From the NCBI GenBank assembly GCA_030610995.1, contig JAUWQO010000008.1, forward strand, positions 1 through 52,167: a stretch of 52,167 nt of DNA, written 5' to 3'. The position numbers and the translations under genes are program-made. Positions 4,069 through 49,642 of this stretch are shown piece after piece (within the stretch, counting starts at the first letter, position 1; every line of letters starts with the position of its first letter). This stretch comes from Desulfobacterales bacterium. GTDB taxonomy: Bacteria; Desulfobacterota; Desulfobacteria; Desulfobacterales; ETH-SRB1. The notes beneath the pieces were generated by a model. The model saw only the letters and a list, made by a program, of their open reading frames with translations, was not told the DNA's origin and ran no database searches.

Positions 4069-5370
<1,302 letters not shown>

Positions 5371-20347: not shown

Positions 20348-22381
20348 ATGGCAAAGAATGAAGCAGTAGAAACATCGGAAGCTCAAATAGCTGTTCACTG
20401 GAAGGAGGAAGACTATGTTTATCCTTCTAAAGAATTTATTGAACAGGCTAATATAAAGGATGAAGCAATTTACGAGCGTTTTGCTCTGGACAAATTCCCT
20501 GAATGTTATACGGAATATGCTGATCTTTTACACTGGCACAAGAAGTGGGATACCATATTGGATACAAGCGATGCTCCATGCTGGAAATGGTTTGTAGGCG
20601 GAAAGATAAATGCATGTTATAATTGTGTTGACAGGCATCTTGAGAAGAATAAAAACAAAACCGCAATCCATTTTGTTCCGGAACCTGAAAATGAACGGAT
20701 TGAGCACATTACATATCAGCAACTATATGTGCGGGTTAACGAGGTTGCAGCGCTTCTTCAAGACTTTGCAGGTTTAAAGGCAGGAGATACGGTAACACTT
20801 CATTTGCCTATGACCGCAGATCTTCCTATAACCATGCTTGCCTGCGCCAGACTCGGTATTATTCACTGTGAAGTGTTTGGAGGGTTCAGCGGAAGAGCAT
20901 GCGCAGACAGGATGGTTGATTCTAAAAGCAAAGTACTGATTACGATTGACGGTTATTATAGAAACGGCAAACTCATTGATCACAAGCAAAATGCCGATAT
21001 GGCCGTCGATCTGGCAAAAAAGGACGGCCAGAATGTTGATAAAGTGCTTATATGGCAGCGTTATCCTGGAAAAAATTCCACCAGGACACCGCTGGTTGAT
21101 GGCCGTGATTATTTTATAAATGATTTGCTTCAGGATTATCGCGGAAAAAAGGTAGATCCTGTTCCAATGCCGGCTGAAGATCCTCTTTTTCTCATGTATA
21201 CCAGCGGCACAACAGGAAAACCCAAAGGGTGCCAGCACAGCACAGGAGGCTATCTTGCGTATGTGACGGGCACATCAAAGTATATTGAGGATATTCATCC
21301 GGAAGATGTTTACTGGTGTATGGCGGATATTGGATGGATTACTGGCCATTCATACATAGTTTACGGCCCCCTGTCCCTATGTGCCTCAACGGTGATTTAC
21401 GAAGGGGTTCCCACCTATCCTGATGCAGGCAGAGCGTGGAGGATAGCGGAAGAGCTTGATATAAACATTTTCCATACAGCTCCGACCGTTATACGGGCAT
21501 TAAGAAAGATCGATCCTGATTTGCCGACAAAGTATAGTCATCATTTCAAGCATATGACAACCGTTGGAGAGCCGATCGAGCCCCAGGTCTGGCGATGGTA
21601 TCAAGAGGTGATCGGAAAGAATAAAGCTGTAGTAGTTGATACCTGGTGGCAGACAGAGACCGGTGGTTTTCTGTGCGGTACGGTGCCTGCCATTAAACCG
21701 ATGAAGCCTGGAAGCACAGGCCCGGGAGTGCCCGGCATTCATCCGATTATTTATGATGAGCTTGGAAATGAAATAAAGGCCGGAGAGGGTAGGGCAGGCA
21801 ATATTTGCATAAGAAATCCATGGCCTGGCGCATTTCAAACAATATGGGGAGATCGAGATCGATATGTTTCAAATTATTATGCAAAATACTGCAAGGACAA
21901 AAACAGCAGGGATTGGCGAGACTGGCCGTATCTTACAGGCGACGCCGCTATGGAGGCTAAAGACGGATACTATCGTATTCTTGGCAGAATTGACGATGTA
22001 ATCAATGTTTCAGGCCACAGGCTTGGAACAAAAGAAATTGAGTCTGCATCTCTTACGGTTATGGAGGTGGCGGAAGCGGCCGTTGTTCCGGTTTCCGATG
22101 ATATAAAAGGGGTTGTTCCCGATCTGTATATTTCTTTAAAGCCGGGATATGAGCCAACCGATGAACTGGCTGCGAAAATTTCAGCAGCCATTTGTGACAC
22201 AATCGGTAAGATCGCAAGGCCGAGAAAAGTCTGGCTCGTATCCGACATGCCTAAGACACGTTCAGGCAAGATCATGCGCAGGGTGCTTGGGGCTATCTCA
22301 AATAAAAAAGATGTGGGGGATGTATCTACGCTGGCTAATCCTGAAATCGTTGATGAAATTAAGAAAAAGGTCACATCGTGA
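20348..22381 (+). CDS. acs: acetyl-CoA synthetase (AMP-forming)
   Basis: 677 residues. Adenylates acetate and transfers it to CoA. ANL-superfamily motifs are present: YTSGTTGKPKG (284-294), DTWWQTETGG, the hinge region LTGDAAMEAKDGYYRILGR-type (LTGD...RIDDVINVSGHRLGT) and PKTRSGKIMRR, whose Lys641 is the catalytic residue commonly inactivated by acetylation. Start at ATG 20348 behind GAGGGGGG. The N-terminal ACS domain (about 45-100) includes WHKKWDTILDTSDAPCWKWF-type residues. prpE-like follows after 28 bp with its own ribosome site, so the two form an operon. It is slightly longer than enterobacterial Acs. Part of its 3' end is duplicated in the scar at 8909-8958. Confidence 0.95.
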   Translation: MAKNEAVETSEAQIAVHWKEEDYVYPSKEFIEQANIKDEAIYERFALDKFPECYTEYADLLHWHKKWDTILDTSDAPCWKWFVGGKINACYNCVDRHLEKNKNKTAIHFVPEPENERIEHITYQQLYVRVNEVAALLQDFAGLKAGDTVTLHLPMTADLPITMLACARLGIIHCEVFGGFSGRACADRMVDSKSKVLITIDGYYRNGKLIDHKQNADMAVDLAKKDGQNVDKVLIWQRYPGKNSTRTPLVDGRDYFINDLLQDYRGKKVDPVPMPAEDPLFLMYTSGTTGKPKGCQHSTGGYLAYVTGTSKYIEDIHPEDVYWCMADIGWITGHSYIVYGPLSLCASTVIYEGVPTYPDAGRAWRIAEELDINIFHTAPTVIRALRKIDPDLPTKYSHHFKHMTTVGEPIEPQVWRWYQEVIGKNKAVVVDTWWQTETGGFLCGTVPAIKPMKPGSTGPGVPGIHPIIYDELGNEIKAGEGRAGNICIRNPWPGAFQTIWGDRDRYVSNYYAKYCKDKNSRDWRDWPYLTGDAAMEAKDGYYRILGRIDDVINVSGHRLGTKEIESASLTVMEVAEAAVVPVSDDIKGVVPDLYISLKPGYEPTDELAAKISAAICDTIGKIARPRKVWLVSDMPKTRSGKIMRRVLGAISNKKDVGDVSTLANPEIVDEIKKKVTS

Positions 22382-26824: not shown

Positions 26825-29800
26825 ATTATTTTTCTCTCTCGGGGCAAATGTAATCTCAAATTTTGTTCTATCATCTCTATCAAGCTCAATCGTCCCCTTA
26901 AGTTGTTTTACCAGAGTCGTTACTAATTGCAAACCTAATGTTTCCGCTTTTCGGAAGTCTAAATCTTTTGGGAAGCGGGCGCCGTTATCACTGACTATCA
27001 GTGTAAACTTATTACCTGCATGCAGGTCCCTGTTCGAATGAAGTTCAACGCATATTTTTCCCTTCTTACCCCTTGGGAAAGCGTGTTTCAGGCAATTTGA
27101 AACAAGTTCATTTATAATCAAACCACAAGGGATGGCATTATCAATACCCAGAAAGACATCGTCCGCATTGATCTCCAGAGTTATGGTCTCCGGATAGGCC
27201 GCATACGAATGGAACAAAGAGGTTGTGAGCTTTCTGGTATATTCAGCAAAGTCAATCATCGCCAGGTCTTCTGATTGATACAGTTTTTCATGAACGAATG
27301 CCATTGACCTGACACGATTCTGGCTCTCCTTGAATATCTCCATGTCATGTTTATCCTTGATATGCGTAGACTGAAGCCTGAGCAGACTGTAAATAACCTG
27401 CAAATTGTTTTTAACCCTGTGGTGAATTTCTTTTAAAAGCACTTCTTTCTCATTCAGCGATGCCTTGATTTGATCCTCCGCCTGTTTGCGGTGGGTGATG
27501 TTGTGGAACAACTCCAGCACTGTTTTTGGACGACCGTCCTCGTGTCGCGCAGCCACATTAGCTGTGTTTAAGCAGGTTCGTTGCTTTCCATCAGCTCCGA
27601 TAACTTCCATCTCGCCTTCATGAACTCTGCCATCTTCGAAACATTGCCTCACAACGCATATTTCGCAAACCTTATCCTGCCCGTGAAAAACAGCATGGCA
27701 TTTCCGGCCAACCAGATCCGGGCCAAACATGTCTCTGGCAGCATCGTTAACCCATACAATAGTAAATTGCTCGTCTATCATGCCCATGTAGTCCGTCACC
27801 GAATCGACAATGCCGGCAAGTTTCTCCTCACTTTCACGAAGCGCCTGCTCCGCCTGTCTCATCTCGTCGAGCAGACGGGCGTTCTCAAAAGAGATGGCCG
27901 CCTGGGAAGTCAGCAGCTCTGTCATCTCTGTCCTTTCCGGCGTGAAAACCGAATCCGACAAACGGTTTTCCAGGTATAGAATTCCAATCAATTTGGATTG
28001 CTTGATCAATGGAAGGCAAAGGATCGATTTAAGGCCCATCCTCTGAACCTTGGGATTGTCCTTAAACTCACCCTCTTCCGAAGCATTGTTCAGGACCACC
28101 CTCTTTTTAGTCCGCCGCACATAACGGACAATAGCCTTACAAACGTCCGCGGCATCTTCAAGGTTGTATTTGACAGTGCGAACAGCATCTTTTTTAGTGA
28201 TATGACTTTCGGCGCGGACAATCAGGCTGCCGCTTTCTTCAATCAAAAGATAACCATGCTGGGACCCCGAGGCCTCCAGCACCACATTCATGATCTTTTT
28301 CAACAGGACATCGGGATCGATCTCTGCTGAAATAGCAAGGGAGGATTTCATGAGATAGTCAACGTCCAGGCCGGGAAGGGTGTAAGCAGCCGACTCTGCT
28401 TCGGCCGGCGCGTAAGCAGGCGCCTCTTCCTCAAAATACTCAGGGTATTTCTCCATGAGTAAGATCTCTTTACGTTCCGCCCGGCATTTTCTGTATAGCC
28501 GGGCGGCCTCGACAAAGTAAACCCGAGCTGTGTCAAAACCTGCGCCCTTGAGAAGCTCTCCACGACACTCATTAAGGTGGCTTTCCAGCAGTGTGTAGCG
28601 CTGTTTGTGGGCAATAGCTATAGCATCAAAATAGAGACTTCTTGCCTTTCTGAAATCGCCGGTAACTCTTTCCAGTTCTGCATAGATAAAAGCAAGATAA
28701 GGTTTAAACATTGGCCCGTATTGAGCCCAGGTTTCAACCTTTTTGATGAGCGGTTGAATATAAGCTAATAGTTCTTCTTTGCTTTTGTAGATGATTCCCC
28801 TTTCATACAGCCTGAGGGCATTCAGCGCCTGAAAGACATGCCACTGTCGCTTCAGTAGATGGTCGGTAAGCCCTCTCAGATACTCTCTGACTTTAAATAA
28901 ATACTCTTCGGCCTTTTCATACTTTCCGAAATAATAGTGGGTCAAAGCCAAGTGCGCATAATAGCTCCCCGCAGCGGCAATATGGTTTTGGTTTTCCCAT
29001 TTTTCAATCTTTTCCTCCATGGGGATGGGAGTATAACCTCTCTTCATAGGTTCTATCCACCCGGCCTGCATCGCCTCGGCCAGAGCAACGGAAAAGGATA
29101 AATGGTATTTTTGAGAAAACTGCAGACACTCTTTAGCATACTCCTCGATTGCAGACAGGTTAGCTCCCTGAACCTGAAGGCCCCACATCAAGGGTCCGTA
29201 AGAAAGCCCCGCATTATACAGATCACCGCAGTTCTTCCCGCACTGGATCGTTTTCAGACAATGTTTAGCCAGTTCTTCGGGATGATTCCGCGTATGCATA
29301 GTAACCCAGGCAACCCCGTTCATCCCGCGGGTGGCCCCAAAGGTGTTCGGATACCTTTCACACAAATTAAGGGCCAGGTCTTCATATCGAAAGACCTGCT
29401 CAAATTTTAGTTGCTCCCCTAAATAGAGCCCCATGATAGAAAACGAGTAGATCACCGATTCATCCATGCCGCCTTCTATGCAGTGTTGGGTTGACTGGAC
29501 TGCCGAAAGATAGAGTTGCGGCACCAGTCCGGACATGTATAAATCCGGGATAAGTTCACTGTAAAAGCCCAATTCAATCTTACTCTTTCTTTCCTTGGTA
29601 AACGGCATATTCAGGATAGTGTCCCAAATTCTGGAACCATATTGAGAGTTGATTTCATTCATCAACTCCTCTCGTTTTTTCTCTGCAAGCTCAGGATCGT
29701 CCGGGATCGATTTTCCGAAAAATGCCAACCCGCGGTTAGCAGTTTCAATGGCCTTTATAAAATTGCCTATGGATGAGAGCGAGGTGGTCTGTTCGGCTAA

Positions 29801-33961: not shown

Positions 33962-34070
33962 AGTGGCCGAAGTTAGAACCATGCCTGGAAGAGAACAATA
34001 CAAAAGCATGAAGGCCAAATTTCCAATTTCCAATTTCAGCGAGACTTAACCTTATTTGTTTACTTGAAAC

Positions 34071-34117
34071 AAAATCTTGTTTATCCTGTTATCCTGTCTG
34101 GTTTTTTCAAAGGGCTA
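34071..34117. repeat. intergenic repeat family M, copy 2 (inverted)
   Basis: TATCCTGTTATCCTGT core; reverse complement of 1036-1082. The open frame running through it upstream of 34142 is repeat, not coding. Confidence 0.6.
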
Positions 34118-34141
34118 AAGTATTACATCTATTTTAAATTT

Positions 34142-35242
34142 ATGTCGCTTTTAAAACTTTATATAGATAAGGAGGTTGCTGATTCGCCCGAGGTTGTTTC
34201 TATAAAATCACGCCTTAATCTGCCTTCTGAAACAGTTCAGGATGCGCGTGAAGTTTTTGAGTTGGTCTCGTCTGCAGAGGATCCTGTTAAAAAGGGAAAA
34301 GAGATTCTTTTCCTTACACAGAATAAAGGTCCTTTTATCAGGCCATGTCCCGGAACCCGCTATTATACCTGTTGCGACTACAAGATACTGCACATCGGCA
34401 CTTTCTGCACCATGGACTGCTCGTACTGCATCCTGCAATCATATTTTCATCCGCCTGTTCTCCAGTATTTCGTTAACCATGACGACCTGCTGTCAGAATT
34501 GGACAGACTGTTTCAAAAAAAAAGTGTGAGAAGGGTAGGAACCGGAGAGTTTACTGACAGCATGATCTGGGAGAGGTGGACCGACCTTTCAAGTCTGCTT
34601 GTTCCTAAATTTGCCGGCCAGTCATCCGCCGTGCTGGAGCTAAAGACCAAAACAATTGCCATTAAAGGGTTGAAAAATCTCGATCATAACCGCAAGACAA
34701 TAGTTTCCTGGTCGCTTAACACAAATGGAATTATCAGCAATGAGGAGCGTCATACAACCTCTCTTTCCGAGAGGCTAAAGGCAGCAGCTAAATGCGAGTC
34801 ATGGGGATATCCACTGGCCTTTCATTTTGATCCAATGATTATTTATGAGGGTTGTGAAGAGGATTACAGGCAGGTGGTTATCAAGCTTTTTTCCACAGTA
34901 TCTCCTGAAAATATCGTATGGATAAGTCTTGGCACGTTTAGATTTATGCCGTCCTTAAAACAGGTTGTTCAGAAACGGTTTCCTGATTCAAAAATAATAT
35001 ACGGGGAATTCATATCCGGCCTTGACAACAAGATGCGCTACTTTAAACCGCTTCGTATTGATCTTTATCAAAAGATGGCATCCTGGATAAAGGAAGCAGC
35101 CCCCAATGTTCTTGTCTATTTCTGCATGGAAGATGATGAGGTATGGGAAAAGTCTCTTGGATTTATCCCATCTGACCGTGGAGGCCTGCCTCTGATGCTT
35201 GATAAAAGCGCTATGCGTCATTGCGGGCTTGATAGCACTTAG
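34142..35242 (+). CDS. spore photoproduct lyase-like radical SAM protein
   Basis: 366 residues from ATG 34142; the open frame from 34064 is discarded because its first codons are family M repeat. The radical SAM cluster motif is CTMDCSYC (Cys89, Cys93, Cys96), a C-x3-C-x2-C spacing, followed by ILQSYFHPPVLQ as in the SPL family; upstream FIRPCPGTRYYTCCDYKIL carries further cysteines. It ends in the family-typical YFCMEDDEVWEKSLGFIPS. SPL reverses the UV thymine photoproduct of spore DNA; relatives in non-sporulating bacteria are annotated as DNA repair photolyases without proven substrate. Monocistronic between repeat blocks. Confidence 0.85.
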   Translation: MSLLKLYIDKEVADSPEVVSIKSRLNLPSETVQDAREVFELVSSAEDPVKKGKEILFLTQNKGPFIRPCPGTRYYTCCDYKILHIGTFCTMDCSYCILQSYFHPPVLQYFVNHDDLLSELDRLFQKKSVRRVGTGEFTDSMIWERWTDLSSLLVPKFAGQSSAVLELKTKTIAIKGLKNLDHNRKTIVSWSLNTNGIISNEERHTTSLSERLKAAAKCESWGYPLAFHFDPMIIYEGCEEDYRQVVIKLFSTVSPENIVWISLGTFRFMPSLKQVVQKRFPDSKIIYGEFISGLDNKMRYFKPLRIDLYQKMASWIKEAAPNVLVYFCMEDDEVWEKSLGFIPSDRGGLPLMLDKSAMRHCGLDST

Positions 35243-39011: not shown

Positions 39012-40886
39012 TTACATTTCAAGCATTTTTTTTGCCGCATCAACTATGGCAGATGCGTCTATCTGGTATTTTTTTCTGAGAAACTCCTGAGGGCCATGCT
39101 CAACAAACGTATCGGGTATGCCGATACGTTCAAGGCAAAAACCTGTTATACCTTCATCATTTAAGCATTCCAGAACCGCACTTCCAAATCCTCCCTGACG
39201 AACATTTTCTTCAACAGTTATAATGCGCGGTATCTTTTTTGCCAGAGAACATATCAAATCAACATCGATCGGCTTCACAAAGCGGCAATTTACAATTGTT
39301 GCATTTATATCCTGTTCGGCTAATATTAAATGTGCTGAAAGGGCTTCGCAAACAGAACTGCCGATTGCCAGAATAAGAACATCGTCCCCCTTTTTCAGAA
39401 TCTCTCCTTTCCCGACAGGTATGGGAGTAATATCTTCCTCTATTTTTACACCTGCTGCTTTTCCCCGTGGATATCGAAATGCTATAGGGCCATTATGGGC
39501 AAGGGCAGCAACTAACATCCGGCAAAGTTCATTTTCATCCTTTGGCGCCATGACCACCATGTTTGGAAGACTTCTAAGATAAGAAAAATCGAACAGCCCC
39601 TGATGGGTCTGGCCGTCTTCACCTGCAATACCCCCTCTGTCAAGCGCAAAAATCACGGGCAGGGCTTCAATGCACACGTCGTGGAGTACCTGATCATATG
39701 CGCGCTGCAGAAAGGTGGAGTAGATTGCCACAACCGGCCTTAGCCCCTCGGCAGCCATTCCCGCGGCAAATGTTACACCATGCTGCTCAGCTATCCCCAC
39801 ATCAAAAAACCTGTCAGGATAAGCCTCGGCAAACTTAACAAGCCCTGTGCCTTCGGGCATTGCCGCAGTAACGGCGACAATCCTTTTATCATTTTCGGCT
39901 AATTTCACCATTATTTCGCCAAAAACTTCGGTATAGGTCGGAGTAGATTCTTTTTGTTCAATACAGTTTCCGGTTTTAGTATCAAAGGAGCCAACTCCAT
40001 GAAAATAAACAGGATTCTTCTCAGCAGGGGGGTATCCCTTTCCCTTCTTAGTGATGACATGAAGGAGAACAGGCTCGTCAATATTTTTAATATTATTTAG
40101 TATATCAATAAGATGATCCAGTTTATGCCCCTTTATCGGGCCAAAGTATTCAAAATTGAAGGCCTCGAACAGTATTCCCGGTGTAATAAAAGTTTTAAAG
40201 GATTCTTTTGAACGTTTTGCGAACTGATAAACATCCTCTCCGATTTTCGGTACGGATTTAAGAAAAGTTCCAAGCTCCTTTCTTAAATCCTGCATATATT
40301 TTGCTGAAAATGTCCGGCTTAAACGTGAGGATAGGGCGCCTACATTACGAGCAATAGACATATCATTATCATTTAGTATAACCAGGAAATTTTTATGCAT
40401 GTCTCCTGCCTGGTTAAGTCCTTCATAGGCAAGCCCAGCGGTCATGGAACCGTCTCCTATAACGGCAACCACCCTGGATGTTTCCTTTTTTAAACGCTTG
40501 GCACAGGCCATACCAAGACCCGCCGATATAGATGTGCTGCTGTGTCCGGTTGTAAAGGCATCGTAAGGGCTTTCTTTCATGCGGGTAAAACCGCTGATGC
40601 CGTTGTGCTGCCTGAGTGTATGAAATTGTTCCCTGCGTCCTGTAAGCAGCTTGTGGGCGTATGCCTGGTGCCCGACATCCCAGACAATTTTATCATCAGG
40701 AGTATCAAAAACATAGTGAATGGCGATTGCAAGCTCAACAGCGCCGAGACTTGAAGCCAGATGGCCGCCGTTTTTGGACACAACATCAACTATAACTTTT
40801 CGAATTTCCGCTGCAAGAGCCGGTAGATCGGATCGCGAAATCTGCTTTAAATCTGCGGGCAAATTAATATTATCAAGTATGCTCAA
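39012..40886 (-). CDS. dxs: 1-deoxy-D-xylulose-5-phosphate synthase
   Basis: First enzyme of the MEP isoprenoid pathway: pyruvate + glyceraldehyde-3-phosphate to DXP, TPP-dependent. 624 residues, full length. TPP-binding GDGSMTAGLAYEGLNQAG (about 150-167) with the NDNDMSI metal site, the catalytic-region HVITKKGKGYPPAE, and the transketolase pyrimidine domain with DRGGIAGEDGQTHQGLFD. The N-terminal GHQAYAHKLLTGRR and GHSSTSISAGLGMA are typical. Start ATG 40886 follows GGAGTCGGCAAC, a modest ribosome site. Downstream of ispA on the same strand, with repeat D3 between them. Confidence 0.97.
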   Translation of the reverse strand: MSILDNINLPADLKQISRSDLPALAAEIRKVIVDVVSKNGGHLASSLGAVELAIAIHYVFDTPDDKIVWDVGHQAYAHKLLTGRREQFHTLRQHNGISGFTRMKESPYDAFTTGHSSTSISAGLGMACAKRLKKETSRVVAVIGDGSMTAGLAYEGLNQAGDMHKNFLVILNDNDMSIARNVGALSSRLSRTFSAKYMQDLRKELGTFLKSVPKIGEDVYQFAKRSKESFKTFITPGILFEAFNFEYFGPIKGHKLDHLIDILNNIKNIDEPVLLHVITKKGKGYPPAEKNPVYFHGVGSFDTKTGNCIEQKESTPTYTEVFGEIMVKLAENDKRIVAVTAAMPEGTGLVKFAEAYPDRFFDVGIAEQHGVTFAAGMAAEGLRPVVAIYSTFLQRAYDQVLHDVCIEALPVIFALDRGGIAGEDGQTHQGLFDFSYLRSLPNMVVMAPKDENELCRMLVAALAHNGPIAFRYPRGKAAGVKIEEDITPIPVGKGEILKKGDDVLILAIGSSVCEALSAHLILAEQDINATIVNCRFVKPIDVDLICSLAKKIPRIITVEENVRQGGFGSAVLECLNDEGITGFCLERIGIPDTFVEHGPQEFLRKKYQIDASAIVDAAKKMLEM

Positions 40887-43359: not shown

Positions 43360-43593
43360 TTATTCTTCCACGTCAGTTATAAATGGTTTTTCGAAAATAT
43401 TTCCTTCCTGATCTCGCACTAACATCGTGATTTTTTTTTCTGTTTCATCCAGTTTTTCAGAACAGAACTTTGTCAGCCTGATCCCTTCTTCAAATTTTTT
43501 TACAGCCTTCTCAAGACACAAATCACCGGATTCAAGTTCTTGAACTATCTGTTCAAGCTGTTTCATAGACTTTTCAAATGTCAGCTTAGCCAT
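43360..43593 (-). CDS. xseB: exodeoxyribonuclease VII small subunit
   Basis: 77 residues with the family pattern FEKSMKQLEQIVQELESGDLCLEKAVKKFEEGIRL (read as FEKSMKQLEQIV, ESGDLCLEKAVKKFEEG). Small alpha-helical subunit that binds the C-terminus of XseA in the single-strand exonuclease. Start ATG 43593 overlaps the end of xseA by 8 bp, so the pair is translationally coupled. Confidence 0.93.
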   Translation of the reverse strand: MAKLTFEKSMKQLEQIVQELESGDLCLEKAVKKFEEGIRLTKFCSEKLDETEKKITMLVRDQEGNIFEKPFITDVEE

Positions 43594-44953
43594 TATCCAA
43601 TATCCTTTCTACACGGCATATTAAAGAACCTTTTGCAACCATTACTTCAAGCTCCTGCCTCTTTCTTACCTCTTTTGCATCCATGATAACAACTGCGTCC
43701 GGAATCGTCCTGGTGATGCTATAACCACGAGCCAGGATTGAGAGAGGGCTTAAAGCATTAAGCTTAGCTGTAAGTTCCCGAAGTGTGGAATATTTACCAT
43801 CCAAATATATTTTCATATAAATTAGAAGGTTATCATTATTTTGTTGAAGTTTCTCATTAATCTTTTTTGTTTGTATTAATGGGTTATTTGCGTGCAGACT
43901 GTTAACACGCCAAACAAGCCGTTCCCGTCTCAAACGCAAACTGTTTTCAAATAGCCTGATAAGCCGGGAAGTTAAGTCGTCTATCCTGAGCCTTAAATCC
44001 TGAATTTTTTTCTTTGGCTCAATTAGCCGTTTGGATGTTTCATTTATTTGTATGCGAAAACGTTCAATCTTATTGAAAAAACAGGAAGTTAATAACCTTG
44101 TGATTTCAATACATCTACGCACGAGATCATCCTTTTTATTGACCGCCAGTTCTGCTGCAGCAGATGGGGTCGGAGCTCGGAGGTCGGCAACAAAGTCGGA
44201 AATTGTAAAATCGGTCTCATGCCCGACAGCCGAAATAACCGGAATCTTTGAGGCAAAAACAGCCCTGGCAACTGTTTCTGAATTAAATGCCGCAAGATCC
44301 TCTATAGACCCGCCTCCTCTGGCCAGGATGGCTACATCGGCGCTGTCCATGGTATCTGCCCTGAGATTTAACAATTCAAGGGCTGATGCAATTTCCCTTT
44401 CTGCTCCATCTCCCTGAACCTTAACCGGTATGATTTCAATATGAAGGTTTGGAAAGCGTCTGTAAACTATTTTCAGGATATCATGGACAACCGAGCCGGT
44501 GGGAGAGGTTATGATACTGATTTTTTTAGGTAAAAAGGGCAGGGGTTTCTTGTGTTTTTCATCAAAAAGCCCTTCTTCGGAAAGTCTGGCTTTGAGCTGT
44601 TCAAAAGAGATTTGTAGCGCGCCTATGCCTATTGGTTCTAAATGTTCAAAAATTATCTGATAATTGCCGCGAGGTTCATAAACACTTATCCTGCCCAATC
44701 CCACTACGCTTAACCCATCTTTGGCATTAAATTTCAAATTCCGGTTCTGGCCACGAAACATTACTGCATTTATCTGAGCATTTTCATCTTTTAATGTAAA
44801 ATAAAAATGCCCGGAAACCGGTATGTGAAAATTCGAAATTTCTCCGGAAATCCAGACAAATGGGAATTTTTCTTCAAGCAAAGATTTAATAGAAAAGGTC
44901 AGTTCGGATACAGTATATATCCGTTGTTGTATTTCCCCGTTATTAGAATTCAC
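43586..44953 (-). CDS. xseA: exodeoxyribonuclease VII large subunit
   Basis: 455 residues. N-terminal OB-fold (about 10-105; VWISGEISNFHIPVSGHFYFTLKD blocks VWISGEISNF and SGHFYFTLKD), catalytic domain with ITSPTGSVVHDIL and ARGGGSIEDLAAFN and SAVGHETDFTISDFVADLRAPTPSA (read as GHETDFTISDFVAD, RAPTPSAAAE), then a long coiled coil (about 290-400) and the C-terminal segment LARGYSITR. Degrades single-stranded DNA to oligonucleotides in repair and recombination. The start is GTG 44953; the ribosome site is weak. First gene of the xseA-xseB-...-ispA-dxs-tlyA run on the minus strand. Confidence 0.95.
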   Translation of the reverse strand: MNSNNGEIQQRIYTVSELTFSIKSLLEEKFPFVWISGEISNFHIPVSGHFYFTLKDENAQINAVMFRGQNRNLKFNAKDGLSVVGLGRISVYEPRGNYQIIFEHLEPIGIGALQISFEQLKARLSEEGLFDEKHKKPLPFLPKKISIITSPTGSVVHDILKIVYRRFPNLHIEIIPVKVQGDGAEREIASALELLNLRADTMDSADVAILARGGGSIEDLAAFNSETVARAVFASKIPVISAVGHETDFTISDFVADLRAPTPSAAAELAVNKKDDLVRRCIEITRLLTSCFFNKIERFRIQINETSKRLIEPKKKIQDLRLRIDDLTSRLIRLFENSLRLRRERLVWRVNSLHANNPLIQTKKINEKLQQNNDNLLIYMKIYLDGKYSTLRELTAKLNALSPLSILARGYSITRTIPDAVVIMDAKEVRKRQELEVMVAKGSLICRVERILDNG

Positions 44954-45172: not shown

Positions 45173-45448
45173 TCCGTCATTGTCATTCCAATAATTTATA
45201 TTTATCACACTTTAAAAAATCATTCAATAACTATAAACACACCAGCCACGGCAACGTCAAAGTCGAGGATAAATTTGGTGAATAACACTATTTCAAAAAA
45301 ATATTGTCTCATCCGCCAAAGTACTCTGGCGGACAAAGACGCTAAGTTTTATTTTTTTCTTTGCGAGCTTGGCGCCTTTGCGTGAGAAGCCGTGACACAC
45401 CAGCCTTTGTTTTCGGCAAAGACCTTTGAAGGGGGGCTGATTTACATA

Positions 45449-45476
45449 ACGTCTGATAAGGTATATTATGTAAACT
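45449..45476 (+). other. putative dif site (XerC/XerD chromosome dimer resolution)
   Basis: A 28-bp site with the dif layout: XerC-type arm ACGTCTGATAA (45449-45459), 6-bp centre GGTATA, XerD-type arm TTATGTAAACT (45466-45476). As I remember published sites, the XerD arm equals that of Bacillus subtilis and Staphylococcus dif, and the XerC arm ends in the usual ATAA. It is intergenic and unique in the window. An extra TTTACATAA at 45441-45449 makes a wider inverted repeat with the XerD arm, so an operator is an alternative reading. Confidence 0.5.
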
Positions 45477-45515
45477 TATGCGTAGAATCAGGCCAGATCT
45501 TAATTAAAAGCCGTT

Positions 45516-45818
45516 TTAATCCGCAAAATTCTCCCTTTCGGTCTCTTTGGTCTCTCTGTGCTGCTTGTTCACAAAATCGCGTACCACAGGCATTATATAA
45601 ATATTTTCAAGCGGCATTTTATTTAAAAAGTTCGCCAGGATTATATTTTTTTTAAAAACCGGCAGATGTTTATCAATTATAAAAAGATTTTTGTTTTTAA
45701 CCCTGCAGAATCCGCTTTGAATATTTATGCCTATTTTACGAAAATTCTTCTCTGATACTTTAACATTCAGTTTTTCAGTAATCTCTATCAGGTTTTGATA
45801 TAATTGTTCAGGTTTCAT
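45516..45818 (-). CDS. small conserved hypothetical protein
   Basis: 100 residues from ATG 45818 (MKPEQLYQNLIEITEKL); ATG 45821 is one codon earlier and the open frame to 45896 adds only AT-rich, non-family-like sequence. Visible pattern: FRKIGINIQSGFCRVKNKNLFIIDKHLP (FRKIGINIQSGFCRV, FIIDKHLP) then ILANFLNKMPLENIYIMPVVRDFV. I recall similar short proteins in other Desulfobacterota but know no function; a single Cys and the IDKH motif could bind metal. It is divergent from the BI-1 gene and ends beside the dif-like site. Confidence 0.6.
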   Translation of the reverse strand: MKPEQLYQNLIEITEKLNVKVSEKNFRKIGINIQSGFCRVKNKNLFIIDKHLPVFKKNIILANFLNKMPLENIYIMPVVRDFVNKQHRETKETERENFAD

Positions 45819-45932
45819 CATTTTTAAATTAATCTTGAAATAATCTAAGATTGTATTATTATTAATATTGTATTTATGAAACGTGACACCTAACACTTAA
45901 AACATGTCTTTATAATATTTCTGGAGGTAATA

Positions 45933-46634
45933 ATGCAATTTGTATCAACAGATAGAGCACAAACTCAGGTCATAGTTAATGAGTTTATTCGCAGTGTATA
46001 TAACTGGATGGCCATTGGGCTAGGCCTTACAGGTTTTATAGCCTTTTATGTTTCAAACAGCCCTAATATAATAAAGCTTATTTATGGGAATCAGGTTTTG
46101 TTTTTTGGGCTGATAATCGGCGAATTAGCGCTTGTTTTTTATTTAAGCGCAAGGGTGCAAAAAATTCAGGCCTCAACCGCGACCGCCCTGTTTATACTCT
46201 ACGCGGCATTAAACGGGGTCACCCTGTCCTTTATATTCCTTATTTATACCAGTTCGTCCATTACCTCGACATTTTTTATCTGCGCTGCGACCTTTGTTGC
46301 ATGCAGCATATATGGTATGGTTACAAAACGTGATCTTACCTCGCTTGGCGGTTTCATGGCCATGGGGCTTATCGGAATTATCATAGCATCTGTTGTTAAT
46401 ATGTTCATTCGCAGTTCCGGGATGAGTCTGATCATCAGCTATATAGGTGTCTTTGTTTTTGTCGGTTTAACCGCATATGACACACAAAAACTAAAGCGTA
46501 TGGCCGTTACACAGCCCGCCGGTCTTGAGGCAGGAGTCGTCAGAAAAGGGGCGATCATGGGCGCTCTTACATTATATCTGGACTTTATCAACCTGTTTCT
46601 TATGCTGCTTAGAATATTAGGAAGCAGGAGATAG
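45933..46634 (+). CDS. Bax inhibitor-1/YccA family membrane protein
   Basis: 233 residues with seven predicted membrane helices, all of the BI-1/YccA/YetJ pattern: short hydrophilic N-terminus (QVIVNEFIRSVYNWMAIGLGLTG), LFILYAALNGVTLSFIFLIY split as LFILYAALNGVTLS and FIFLIY, and the C-terminal signature TAYDTQKLKRM plus GALTLYLDFINLFLMLLRILG. Relatives act as pH-gated calcium leak channels (YetJ) or modulate the FtsH protease (YccA). ATG 45933 follows CTGGAGGT. Monocistronic; family D repeat starts at its stop codon. Confidence 0.93.
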   Translation: MQFVSTDRAQTQVIVNEFIRSVYNWMAIGLGLTGFIAFYVSNSPNIIKLIYGNQVLFFGLIIGELALVFYLSARVQKIQASTATALFILYAALNGVTLSFIFLIYTSSSITSTFFICAATFVACSIYGMVTKRDLTSLGGFMAMGLIGIIIASVVNMFIRSSGMSLIISYIGVFVFVGLTAYDTQKLKRMAVTQPAGLEAGVVRKGAIMGALTLYLDFINLFLMLLRILGSRR

Positions 46635-46760
46635 CTTAATTGAGGAATTTAGGAATTTAGGGATTGAGGAATTAAAGGTATTCTGCTGATCTCAATTCCT
46701 CAATCCCTTAATCCCCCAATTCCCTAATCCCTCAATCCCTCAATCCCTAAATTCCTAATT
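46635..46760. repeat. octamer snap-back array family D, copy 4
   Basis: TAGGAATT/GGGATTGA words, hinge AAAGGTATTCTGCTGATCTC, then TCAATCCC/CCTAAATT words. It fills the entire gap between two convergent genes and encodes the last codons and stop of glmM (46747-46749). Confidence 0.85.
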
Positions 46761-48099
46761 CTTTCTTTACTATATCTGCTATCTGCTTACAGTACATGCC
46801 GGTTTCATCCATGCTCGGCCCCTCGACCATTATTCTGCAAAGAGGCTGGGTGCCTGAATAACGAACAAGCACCCTGCCCCTTTTATCCATACTTGTTTCA
46901 ACCGATTTTATCACCTCTTTGATAACAGGAATCGATCGAATATCAGGCTTGCTCTTTACTTTGACATTAATAAGAACCTGTGGAAATACAGTCATGCTTT
47001 TGCCAAGTTCTGAAACCGGTTTTGATTCCATTTTAACAGCTTCGATCAGCCTTATAGCAGCAAGAAGCCCATCACCTGTTGTATGATGATCCAAAAAGAT
47101 CATGTGGCCTGATTCTTCTCCTCCTAAACCAGCTCCGGATGAAATCATTTTTTCCGCAACATAACGGTCTCCCACATCTGTCGCAATATGCTCTACGCCT
47201 ATATCTTTTAAAGCAAGCTTAAGCCCGATATTGCTCATAACAGTACTTACAACCAGATTATTTTTAAGTGTCCCCTTTTGCTTCATGCTCATTGCACAGA
47301 TGGCAAGTATCTGGTCGCCGGTTAAAACATTTCCTTGTTCATCAATCACAATAAGCCTGTCACCGTCGCCGTCAAAGGCAAGTCCGATATCAGCCCTTTT
47401 TTCAATAACCTTTTTAGTTAGAATTTCCGGATGCTGGGACCCGCAGTTATCATTTATATTTTTTCCATCAGGATTGATAAAAATAGATTCTACGTTTGCG
47501 CCTAAGCCTGCAAATAACTTGGGCCCAACACGGTATGTCGCACCATTTGAGCAGTCGATAACGATCTTAATTCCTTTGAAGGGGTTGTCCTGTCCTATTG
47601 TGCTTTTAAGAAAAGCGCAGTAACTTTGTTCAGCATCATCCGTTTTATAAACATTGCCTGTATCACGTATCAGTTTTGACGCTGAAATTGTTTCATCCCC
47701 AAGCACAAGCCTTTCGATTTTTGCCTCTTCTTTGTCTGAAAGCTTGAAGCCGTCTCCTTTAAATATCTTTATTCCATTATCATAAAAGGGATTATGGGAT
47801 GCAGATATCACAATTCCGGCAACAGCATCGGTTGAAGTGGTCAAAAAGGCTATGCCAGGAGTCGGTAGTACACCGGCAAGGTATACATCCACACCCATTG
47901 AACAGATCCCGGAAACTAACGCATATTCCAACATATACCCGGATATCCTGGTATCCTTTCCAATTATTATACTGGATTTCCCTTTTTCTTTCTTAAAAAA
48001 GGATGCAACTGCCCTGCCGACAGCCACGGCTGTTTCAGGTATTATCGGATATTCATTGGCCATACCCCTTATGCCGTCGGTGCCGAATAGTTTGCTCAT
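46747..48099 (-). CDS. glmM: phosphoglucosamine mutase
   Basis: Interconverts glucosamine-6-phosphate and glucosamine-1-phosphate for UDP-GlcNAc, feeding peptidoglycan and LPS. 450 residues. Starts LFGTDGIRG; phosphoserine loop VISASHNPFYDNGIKIF with Ser101; metal-binding DGDGDRL; sugar-binding GGEESGH; phosphate loop RYSGTQPLCRIM (usual RxSGTEP, here Gln). The final residues ELGI and the stop are encoded in repeat D4 sequence. Upstream the beta-helix protein gene at 48389 is on the same strand and may act in the same nucleotide-sugar route. Confidence 0.95.
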   Translation of the reverse strand: MSKLFGTDGIRGMANEYPIIPETAVAVGRAVASFFKKEKGKSSIIIGKDTRISGYMLEYALVSGICSMGVDVYLAGVLPTPGIAFLTTSTDAVAGIVISASHNPFYDNGIKIFKGDGFKLSDKEEAKIERLVLGDETISASKLIRDTGNVYKTDDAEQSYCAFLKSTIGQDNPFKGIKIVIDCSNGATYRVGPKLFAGLGANVESIFINPDGKNINDNCGSQHPEILTKKVIEKRADIGLAFDGDGDRLIVIDEQGNVLTGDQILAICAMSMKQKGTLKNNLVVSTVMSNIGLKLALKDIGVEHIATDVGDRYVAEKMISSGAGLGGEESGHMIFLDHHTTGDGLLAAIRLIEAVKMESKPVSELGKSMTVFPQVLINVKVKSKPDIRSIPVIKEVIKSVETSMDKRGRVLVRYSGTQPLCRIMVEGPSMDETGMYCKQIADIVKKELGI

Positions 48100-48388: not shown

Positions 48389-49642
48389 TCAACTTCTGAA
48401 AGATGGTATAATTTCAAGCAGTTTTATGGTAATATCGTCAACAATACCCTGAAGCCACATGGTTCCGGTTTTTGAATCTTTGCTCTCAAGCCCCTTTATA
48501 ACGGTAATATAATCCTTGCCCCATTTTTTTATGCCTGTATCTATTCTCTCAAGAAAAACATCTCTTAAAGCTTGATCACCTGCATTGTCGCGAAGCTCTA
48601 CGAAAGATTCTTCCAGCCTAATCCGCATTCTATAAAGCTCATGCTTTTGCCGCGCAACAATTGAAGATGGCTTGTCGTTTGCGGTGTATTGGTCTGATGC
48701 GGCAAAATCCTGCATTTTATCACATAAAGCCTTAAACCTTTTTATCCGTTCATCAATTGCCATGCTTAGCTTTTGTTTTAAACCGGCAAAAAGAGGCTTC
48801 GGGAAATCATCTGAAATAAACCGCGTGCGCACATTAATATACCACTGCATAAGGGCTGTAAGATTTGCTATATATATAATGTTGTTTATAACTATTCTTT
48901 TAATGCCTATATATGCGCCAGGGGTAAATACAATGGTTTCCCCCTTTCCTGCCTTATCGAAAATGAGACGTTGCGGCCTCAGCTCATCCTTTCTGCATAT
49001 TGTACCGGCAGCTATTACAGTGCCGAATGCCAGGCGACACGGGCCTACAAGACCCCCCTGCCCTCCAAGAAATATCGGATTCTGGTTCAGCATTACGCCG
49101 CTTGGCACATCGCCGATAAGGGATGGGGTGGCCTTGTCCTGCTCAGGAGTATAATTAAAATGAATGTATGAGCTGCCGACCTCGCTATGATTTTTCCGGC
49201 TTGTTCCGCCTGCCATTAAACAGTCGCAAAAATTGATAAGGCTGCCCAGGGTTACAAACGGAAATAAAATGGTCTGCTTTAAACCAACTGTGTGAGCTAT
49301 ACTTGATTCTTCCTCAAGTATGGTTCCTTTTCTTATATGAGAACCAAAACCAACGGACACTCTTTTTAGAAATACAGCATCCTTAAAAAAACCTGCGTTA
49401 AGGTTAACCAGCGGCCCGACCTGACAGTTTTCAACAGTAACCGGCGCCTCATATCCTAACTTTGCGCCATGAAGTATAAGAGTTGAACTGCCGAAGATTT
49501 TGCAACCTGAATGAATTATGGTTTTGTTTCCTGAAATCCTGTCAGTATCTACATTTTCACCTATCTCAACGGTATCAGGATTTGGAATTTTCACACCCTT
49601 TTTTACCAGCTTTTCAATTTTCAAAATGCCTGGACTTTTCAT
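48389..49642 (-). CDS. left-handed beta-helix (hexapeptide) protein, UDP-GlcNAc pyrophosphorylase-related
   Basis: 417 residues. Residues about 25-250 show the repeating short-strand pattern of left-handed beta-helix proteins: IGENVDTDRISGNKTIIHSG, CKIFGSSTLILHGAKLG, VSVGFGSHIRKGTILEE, ending in GTVIAAGTICRKDEL. It lacks the N-terminal nucleotidyltransferase domain of GlmU, so it resembles the acetyltransferase half or a sugar-nucleotide scaffold. The C-terminal third (about 290-417) is helical and charged. The glmM neighbour downstream supports a cell-envelope nucleotide-sugar role (inference). Start ATG 49642; enzymatic activity unproven. Confidence 0.65.
   Translation of the reverse strand: MKSPGILKIEKLVKKGVKIPNPDTVEIGENVDTDRISGNKTIIHSGCKIFGSSTLILHGAKLGYEAPVTVENCQVGPLVNLNAGFFKDAVFLKRVSVGFGSHIRKGTILEEESSIAHTVGLKQTILFPFVTLGSLINFCDCLMAGGTSRKNHSEVGSSYIHFNYTPEQDKATPSLIGDVPSGVMLNQNPIFLGGQGGLVGPCRLAFGTVIAAGTICRKDELRPQRLIFDKAGKGETIVFTPGAYIGIKRIVINNIIYIANLTALMQWYINVRTRFISDDFPKPLFAGLKQKLSMAIDERIKRFKALCDKMQDFAASDQYTANDKPSSIVARQKHELYRMRIRLEESFVELRDNAGDQALRDVFLERIDTGIKKWGKDYITVIKGLESKDSKTGTMWLQGIVDDITIKLLEIIPSFRS

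Follow-up and report, generated by a model that had tools for sequence, protein, structure and literature searches.

Is the 28-bp element at positions 45449–45476 (+) of the window, the 52,167-nt stretch of DNA analyzed here, the dif site of this Desulfobacterales chromosome, as a preliminary description had proposed? We consider this almost certain because of the sequence of the element, its copy number, its phylogenetic conservation, the partner proteins encoded in the genome, and the polarity of FtsK-orienting sequences around it. If the 28-mer is dif, the window spans the replication terminus; this second claim of the preliminary description is borne out by the octamer polarity switch, sequence, copy number, conservation, and partner proteins, which all agree. 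Sites like this one are well known; this one is newly placed in the genome.

The 28-mer reads ACGTCTGATAA-GGTATA-TTATGTAAACT, and direct reading confirms the 11-6-11 layout described earlier: a predicted XerC-binding arm (45449–45459), a central hexamer (45460–45465), and a predicted XerD-binding arm (45466–45476), all on the + strand. It lies in an AT-rich spacer and is indeed intergenic, between the start of xseA (43586–44953, −) and a small conserved ORF (45516–45896, −). A mechanically called ORF (45392–45655, +) overlaps the 28-mer but was given no weight because the flanks on both sides of the site are not conserved between relatives. The 28-mer has no second match with up to three mismatches in the window, and 100 shuffles gave none. 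One copy at the same tolerance was found in the whole draft genome (3,023,277 bases in 200 contigs, 93% completeness), with zero matches in the reversed control; the single occurrence noted before thus holds for both the window and the draft. A generic gammaproteobacterial-like dif pattern was discarded as a probe: it produced only a poor match in the source genome, and its reversed control matched too.

Near-identical sites are present in 46 of 58 relatives, nearly always one per genome, when the right 21 bases are used as the search pattern. The reversed control of this search gave 9 matches in total over the 58 relatives, and a small number of those with three mismatches are likely due to chance. 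The other 12 relatives had no match to the first pattern, and a looser pattern returned noise at control level there. We count these 12 genomes against the dif reading; absence of the terminus contig from the draft, or divergence of the site, could explain them. In a sample of 197 genomes from the phylum, a degenerate core with up to two mismatches was found in 141. Over 22 sites whose flanks are unrelated, the mean is 1.56 bits per position within the 28-mer versus 0.16 in the flanks, and conservation ends 1–3 bases beyond its edges. Positions 1–7 of the XerC arm (ACGTCTG in relatives), which lay outside the search pattern, are conserved in these 22 sites equally with the remaining positions. 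Judged from sequence, conservation so sharply confined to 28 positions is the behavior of a 28-bp recombination site. The XerD arm is almost invariant across the order; in the central hexamer the first two bases vary (GG, GA, TG, or TA) and the others are nearly fixed. Named carriers of near-exact 28-mers are mostly Desulfobacterales or Desulfobacteraceae metagenome bins, and include Candidatus Desulfaltia bathyphila and Desulfobacteraceae bacterium Eth-SRB1. One genome bin (G014) holds two different dif-bearing contigs (G014:C2 and G014:C74) with identical gene order. Two dif sites in a single G014 genome were rejected as an explanation, both sites being in the same gene neighborhood on two contigs; the bin is most likely a mixture of two strains or species.

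The 28-mer closely resembles dif sites published for deltaproteobacteria, for example that of Geobacter sulfurreducens, ACGTCCCATAAGATATATTATGTAAAGT (Carnoy and Roten, 2009; PMC2731167). Like proteobacterial dif/XerCD sites in general, it is 28 bp long and A/T-rich, its two 11-bp arms flank a 6-bp center, and the XerD arm is near-invariant; it is also intergenic and single-copy, and its genome encodes XerD and a XerC-like partner. It may share with them a position near the GC-skew switch. It differs from published sites in its lineage-specific sequence variant, an GTCTGATAA arm combined with a GGTATA center, and in the local displacement of the GC-skew switch to the XerC side.

The source genome encodes the proteins with which such a site would work. 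XerD is matched at 373.6 bits (cut-off 329.6), and a second tyrosine recombinase has XerC as its best model, at 324.7 bits just under the cut-off of 335.15. FtsK with a gamma domain is encoded as well (107.5 bits), so that XerC-like, XerD, and FtsK-gamma proteins are all present; DnaA is encoded on another contig. On the analogy of E. coli and Vibrio, FtsK bound at the septum would load on GGGNAGGG octamers that point to dif on both chromosome arms and would pump DNA until dif is reached. Its gamma domain would then activate XerD on the TTATGTAAACT arm, and XerC on the ACGTCTGATAA arm would complete the exchange, converting a chromosome dimer into two monomers. XerCD binding, cleavage, and dimer resolution at the 28-mer are inferred from the same analogy.

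The octamers that would guide FtsK support this assignment. In E. coli and Vibrio, GGGNAGGG orients FtsK (PMC2533119), and octamers of the same family have the same polarity relative to dif in the window as in E. coli and Vibrio cholerae, whereas their recognition by the FtsK of this genome is presumed. The window contains seven of these KOPS-like octamers, and all point at the 28-mer. The five to its left are on the + strand: GGGCAGGG at 44537–44544 (antisense inside xseA) and 39657–39664 (antisense inside dxs), GGGAAGGG at 28373–28380 and 4523–4530, and GGGTAGGG at 21787–21794. The two to its right, GGGCAGGG at 46872–46879 (within glmM) and 49056–49063, are on the − strand and point back toward dif. 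On 12 family contigs, GGGNAGGG octamers left of the site number 46 on + and 7 on −, and those right of it 0 on + and 51 on −; within 60 kb of the site, 90 of 94 fit the polarity, and the best-fitting switch point falls −0.25 to +1.25 kb from the site. With one genome per genus (three genera), 35 of 36 octamers fit, for a binomial p of ~1e-9 that overstates independence since some octamers share ancestry. The polarity switch thus coincides with the 28-mer. In a family-mate (G007), octamers also flip at dif on a contig of 535 kb, and in the complete 4.455 Mb chromosome of another member of the order (G026), sampled in 40 stretches, the best switch point is at 2,455,000 and dif at 2,457,689. When 40,878 one-N octamers were ranked without bias for polarity toward the site, GGGNAGGG came second. 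The top-ranked octamer, TGGGGNTG, was rejected as a segregation motif; it comes from a repeat array in the relative G001, where it forms the unit. This array, on contig G001:C53 (L154) ~14–17 kb to the right of dif and so close to the terminus, repeats a 61-base unit that includes CCCCACGTGCGT at least 39 times and looks CRISPR-like.

GC skew follows a different course. Cumulative skew in the window peaks at ~24.5 kb, which is 21 kb left of the 28-mer, and skew is negative between 24 and 45 kb. We count against the dif reading both this displaced peak and the lagging-strand placement of the intervening fusA–xseA genes. The displacement is within the published spread, the third quartile of the distance from proteobacterial dif to the skew switch being 21.4 kb (PMC2731167). 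Six sufficiently long contigs have their skew maximum 8–21 kb from dif, toward its XerC arm. In the family-mate G007, the skew switches at dif when computed over 20 kb stretches and ~15 kb away in 0.5 kb steps; in G026, cumulative skew peaks at ~2.23–2.30 Mb, ~0.15–0.25 Mb from dif, with its minimum near the contig ends. One objection in the preliminary description was that a dif site here would put the genes xseA through fusA on the lagging strand. They are indeed on the − strand, but the objection to dif fails, as octamers keep their polarity across xseA–fusA, opposed to gene strand and local GC skew. In the segment corresponding to 24–45 kb of the window, eight family contigs have 22 octamers on + and 2 on −, where base composition predicts 1.3 and 3.7. 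The switch in segregation polarity therefore lies at dif. The skew of the 24–45 kb segment follows the conserved − strand gene cluster, or at least coincides with it. It is doubtful that in this family KOPS/dif, marking segregation, and GC skew, marking termination, are centered 8–21 kb apart, within a terminus neighborhood conserved order-wide, with the skew switch always on the XerC side; if so, replication would tend to finish within the conserved operon of lagging-strand genes, or past it, and not at dif. The plainer and more likely reading, which we favor, is that the skew merely tracks the coding strand of this operon.

Across the order, the usual arrangement is xseA–dif–small ORF–BI-1–glmM in constant orientation. 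In the window, xseA (TIGR00237, 456 bits) is the left neighbor of dif, as in most of the order, and the small ORF, which had no match in an NCBIfam profile search and is kept beside dif in relatives, adjoins it on the right. Next in synteny are a gene for a Bax-inhibitor-1/YccA-like membrane protein (45933–46634, +; NF045951 and NF007765, below cut-off) and glmM (46747–48099, −; TIGR01455, 569 bits). The site is intact in the exceptions, three loci without xseA, BI-1, or glmM neighbors (L010, L038, and L045) and one with xseA on the other side (L007); the first three show that the neighborhood can be broken. The coding sequences of L038 look high in G+C, and this locus may not belong to Desulfobacterota. 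A limited literature search found no published statement of synteny between dif and xseA/BI-1/glmM, and the retention of dif between xseA and BI-1/glmM across most of the order appears mildly new. Elsewhere in the phylum, none of 30 loci from other orders has xseA, the small ORF, the BI-1 gene, or glmM next to the 28-mer. At three such loci (L197, L199, and L200), a relative of the radical-SAM gene that the window carries at 34064–35242, 11 kb from dif, is found no more than 1 kb from the site. It is possibly an old neighbor of the terminus.

Could the element serve another function? The preliminary description had pointed to a palindrome that an ordinary dimeric regulator of xseA or the neighboring ORFs could bind. 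The 9-base inverted repeat TTTACATAA...TTATGTAAA does exist and is exact in the source genome, where its left half (45441–45449) repeats the inner XerD arm in inverted form; in most of the order, moreover, the site keeps the same flanking genes. However, the left half-repeat is exact only here and unconserved outside the genus (1 exact among 33 sites with unrelated flanks), while the 28-mer is conserved, and the 28-mer persists where xseA, the small ORF, the BI-1 gene, and glmM are absent beside it (all 30 loci outside the order). On these grounds the objection fails; a regulator would also have to be reconciled with a site that is single-copy per genome and at which octamers switch polarity, and we regard it as very improbable. 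Chance resemblance is easiest to imagine in an AT-rich spacer such as this one, but the zero matches in 100 shuffles and, decisively, conservation in relatives with unrelated flanks leave it a negligible prospect.

Slightly less negligible, and still more improbable than a regulator site, is an attachment-site remnant or dif-like site of a mobile element, be it a Xer-exploiting element, a plasmid, or a phage. Phage contigs do carry dif-like sites, yet the genome has only one copy, its neighbors on either side are conserved housekeeping genes whose order is the same from family to family, and octamer polarity centers on the site. The viral sites are of interest in themselves. Almost exact dif sequences (e.g. 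ACGTCTGATAATCTATATTATGTAAACT) occur in four phage contigs that look related (L063, 2206–2233; L066, 7366–7393; L070, 348–375; L077, 251–278), each in an intergenic gap ~190–260 bp upstream of what seems to be the same gene, whose proteins are 31–37% identical in three of the four contigs. These are candidate Xer-dependent attachment or dimer-resolution sites. Some microviruses integrate at dif through host XerCD. A 4.4 kb contig (L057) encodes a 518-aa protein that by eye resembles a gokushovirus major capsid protein, and its dif-like site, near base 977 on the reverse strand, overlaps a small ORF that lies between two genes; such a site would be expected of dif-integrating microviruses.

Identification of the 28-mer as dif fixes the terminus and replichore orientation in a fragmented draft genome. 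It also gives Desulfobacterales a clean dif consensus, ACGTCYGATAA-KRTATA-TTATGTAAACT, and the long-lived neighborhood of the site offers a handle for locating termini in draft genomes of the order. Octamer polarity is separable from GC skew here, which helps to tell segregation signals from replication signals.
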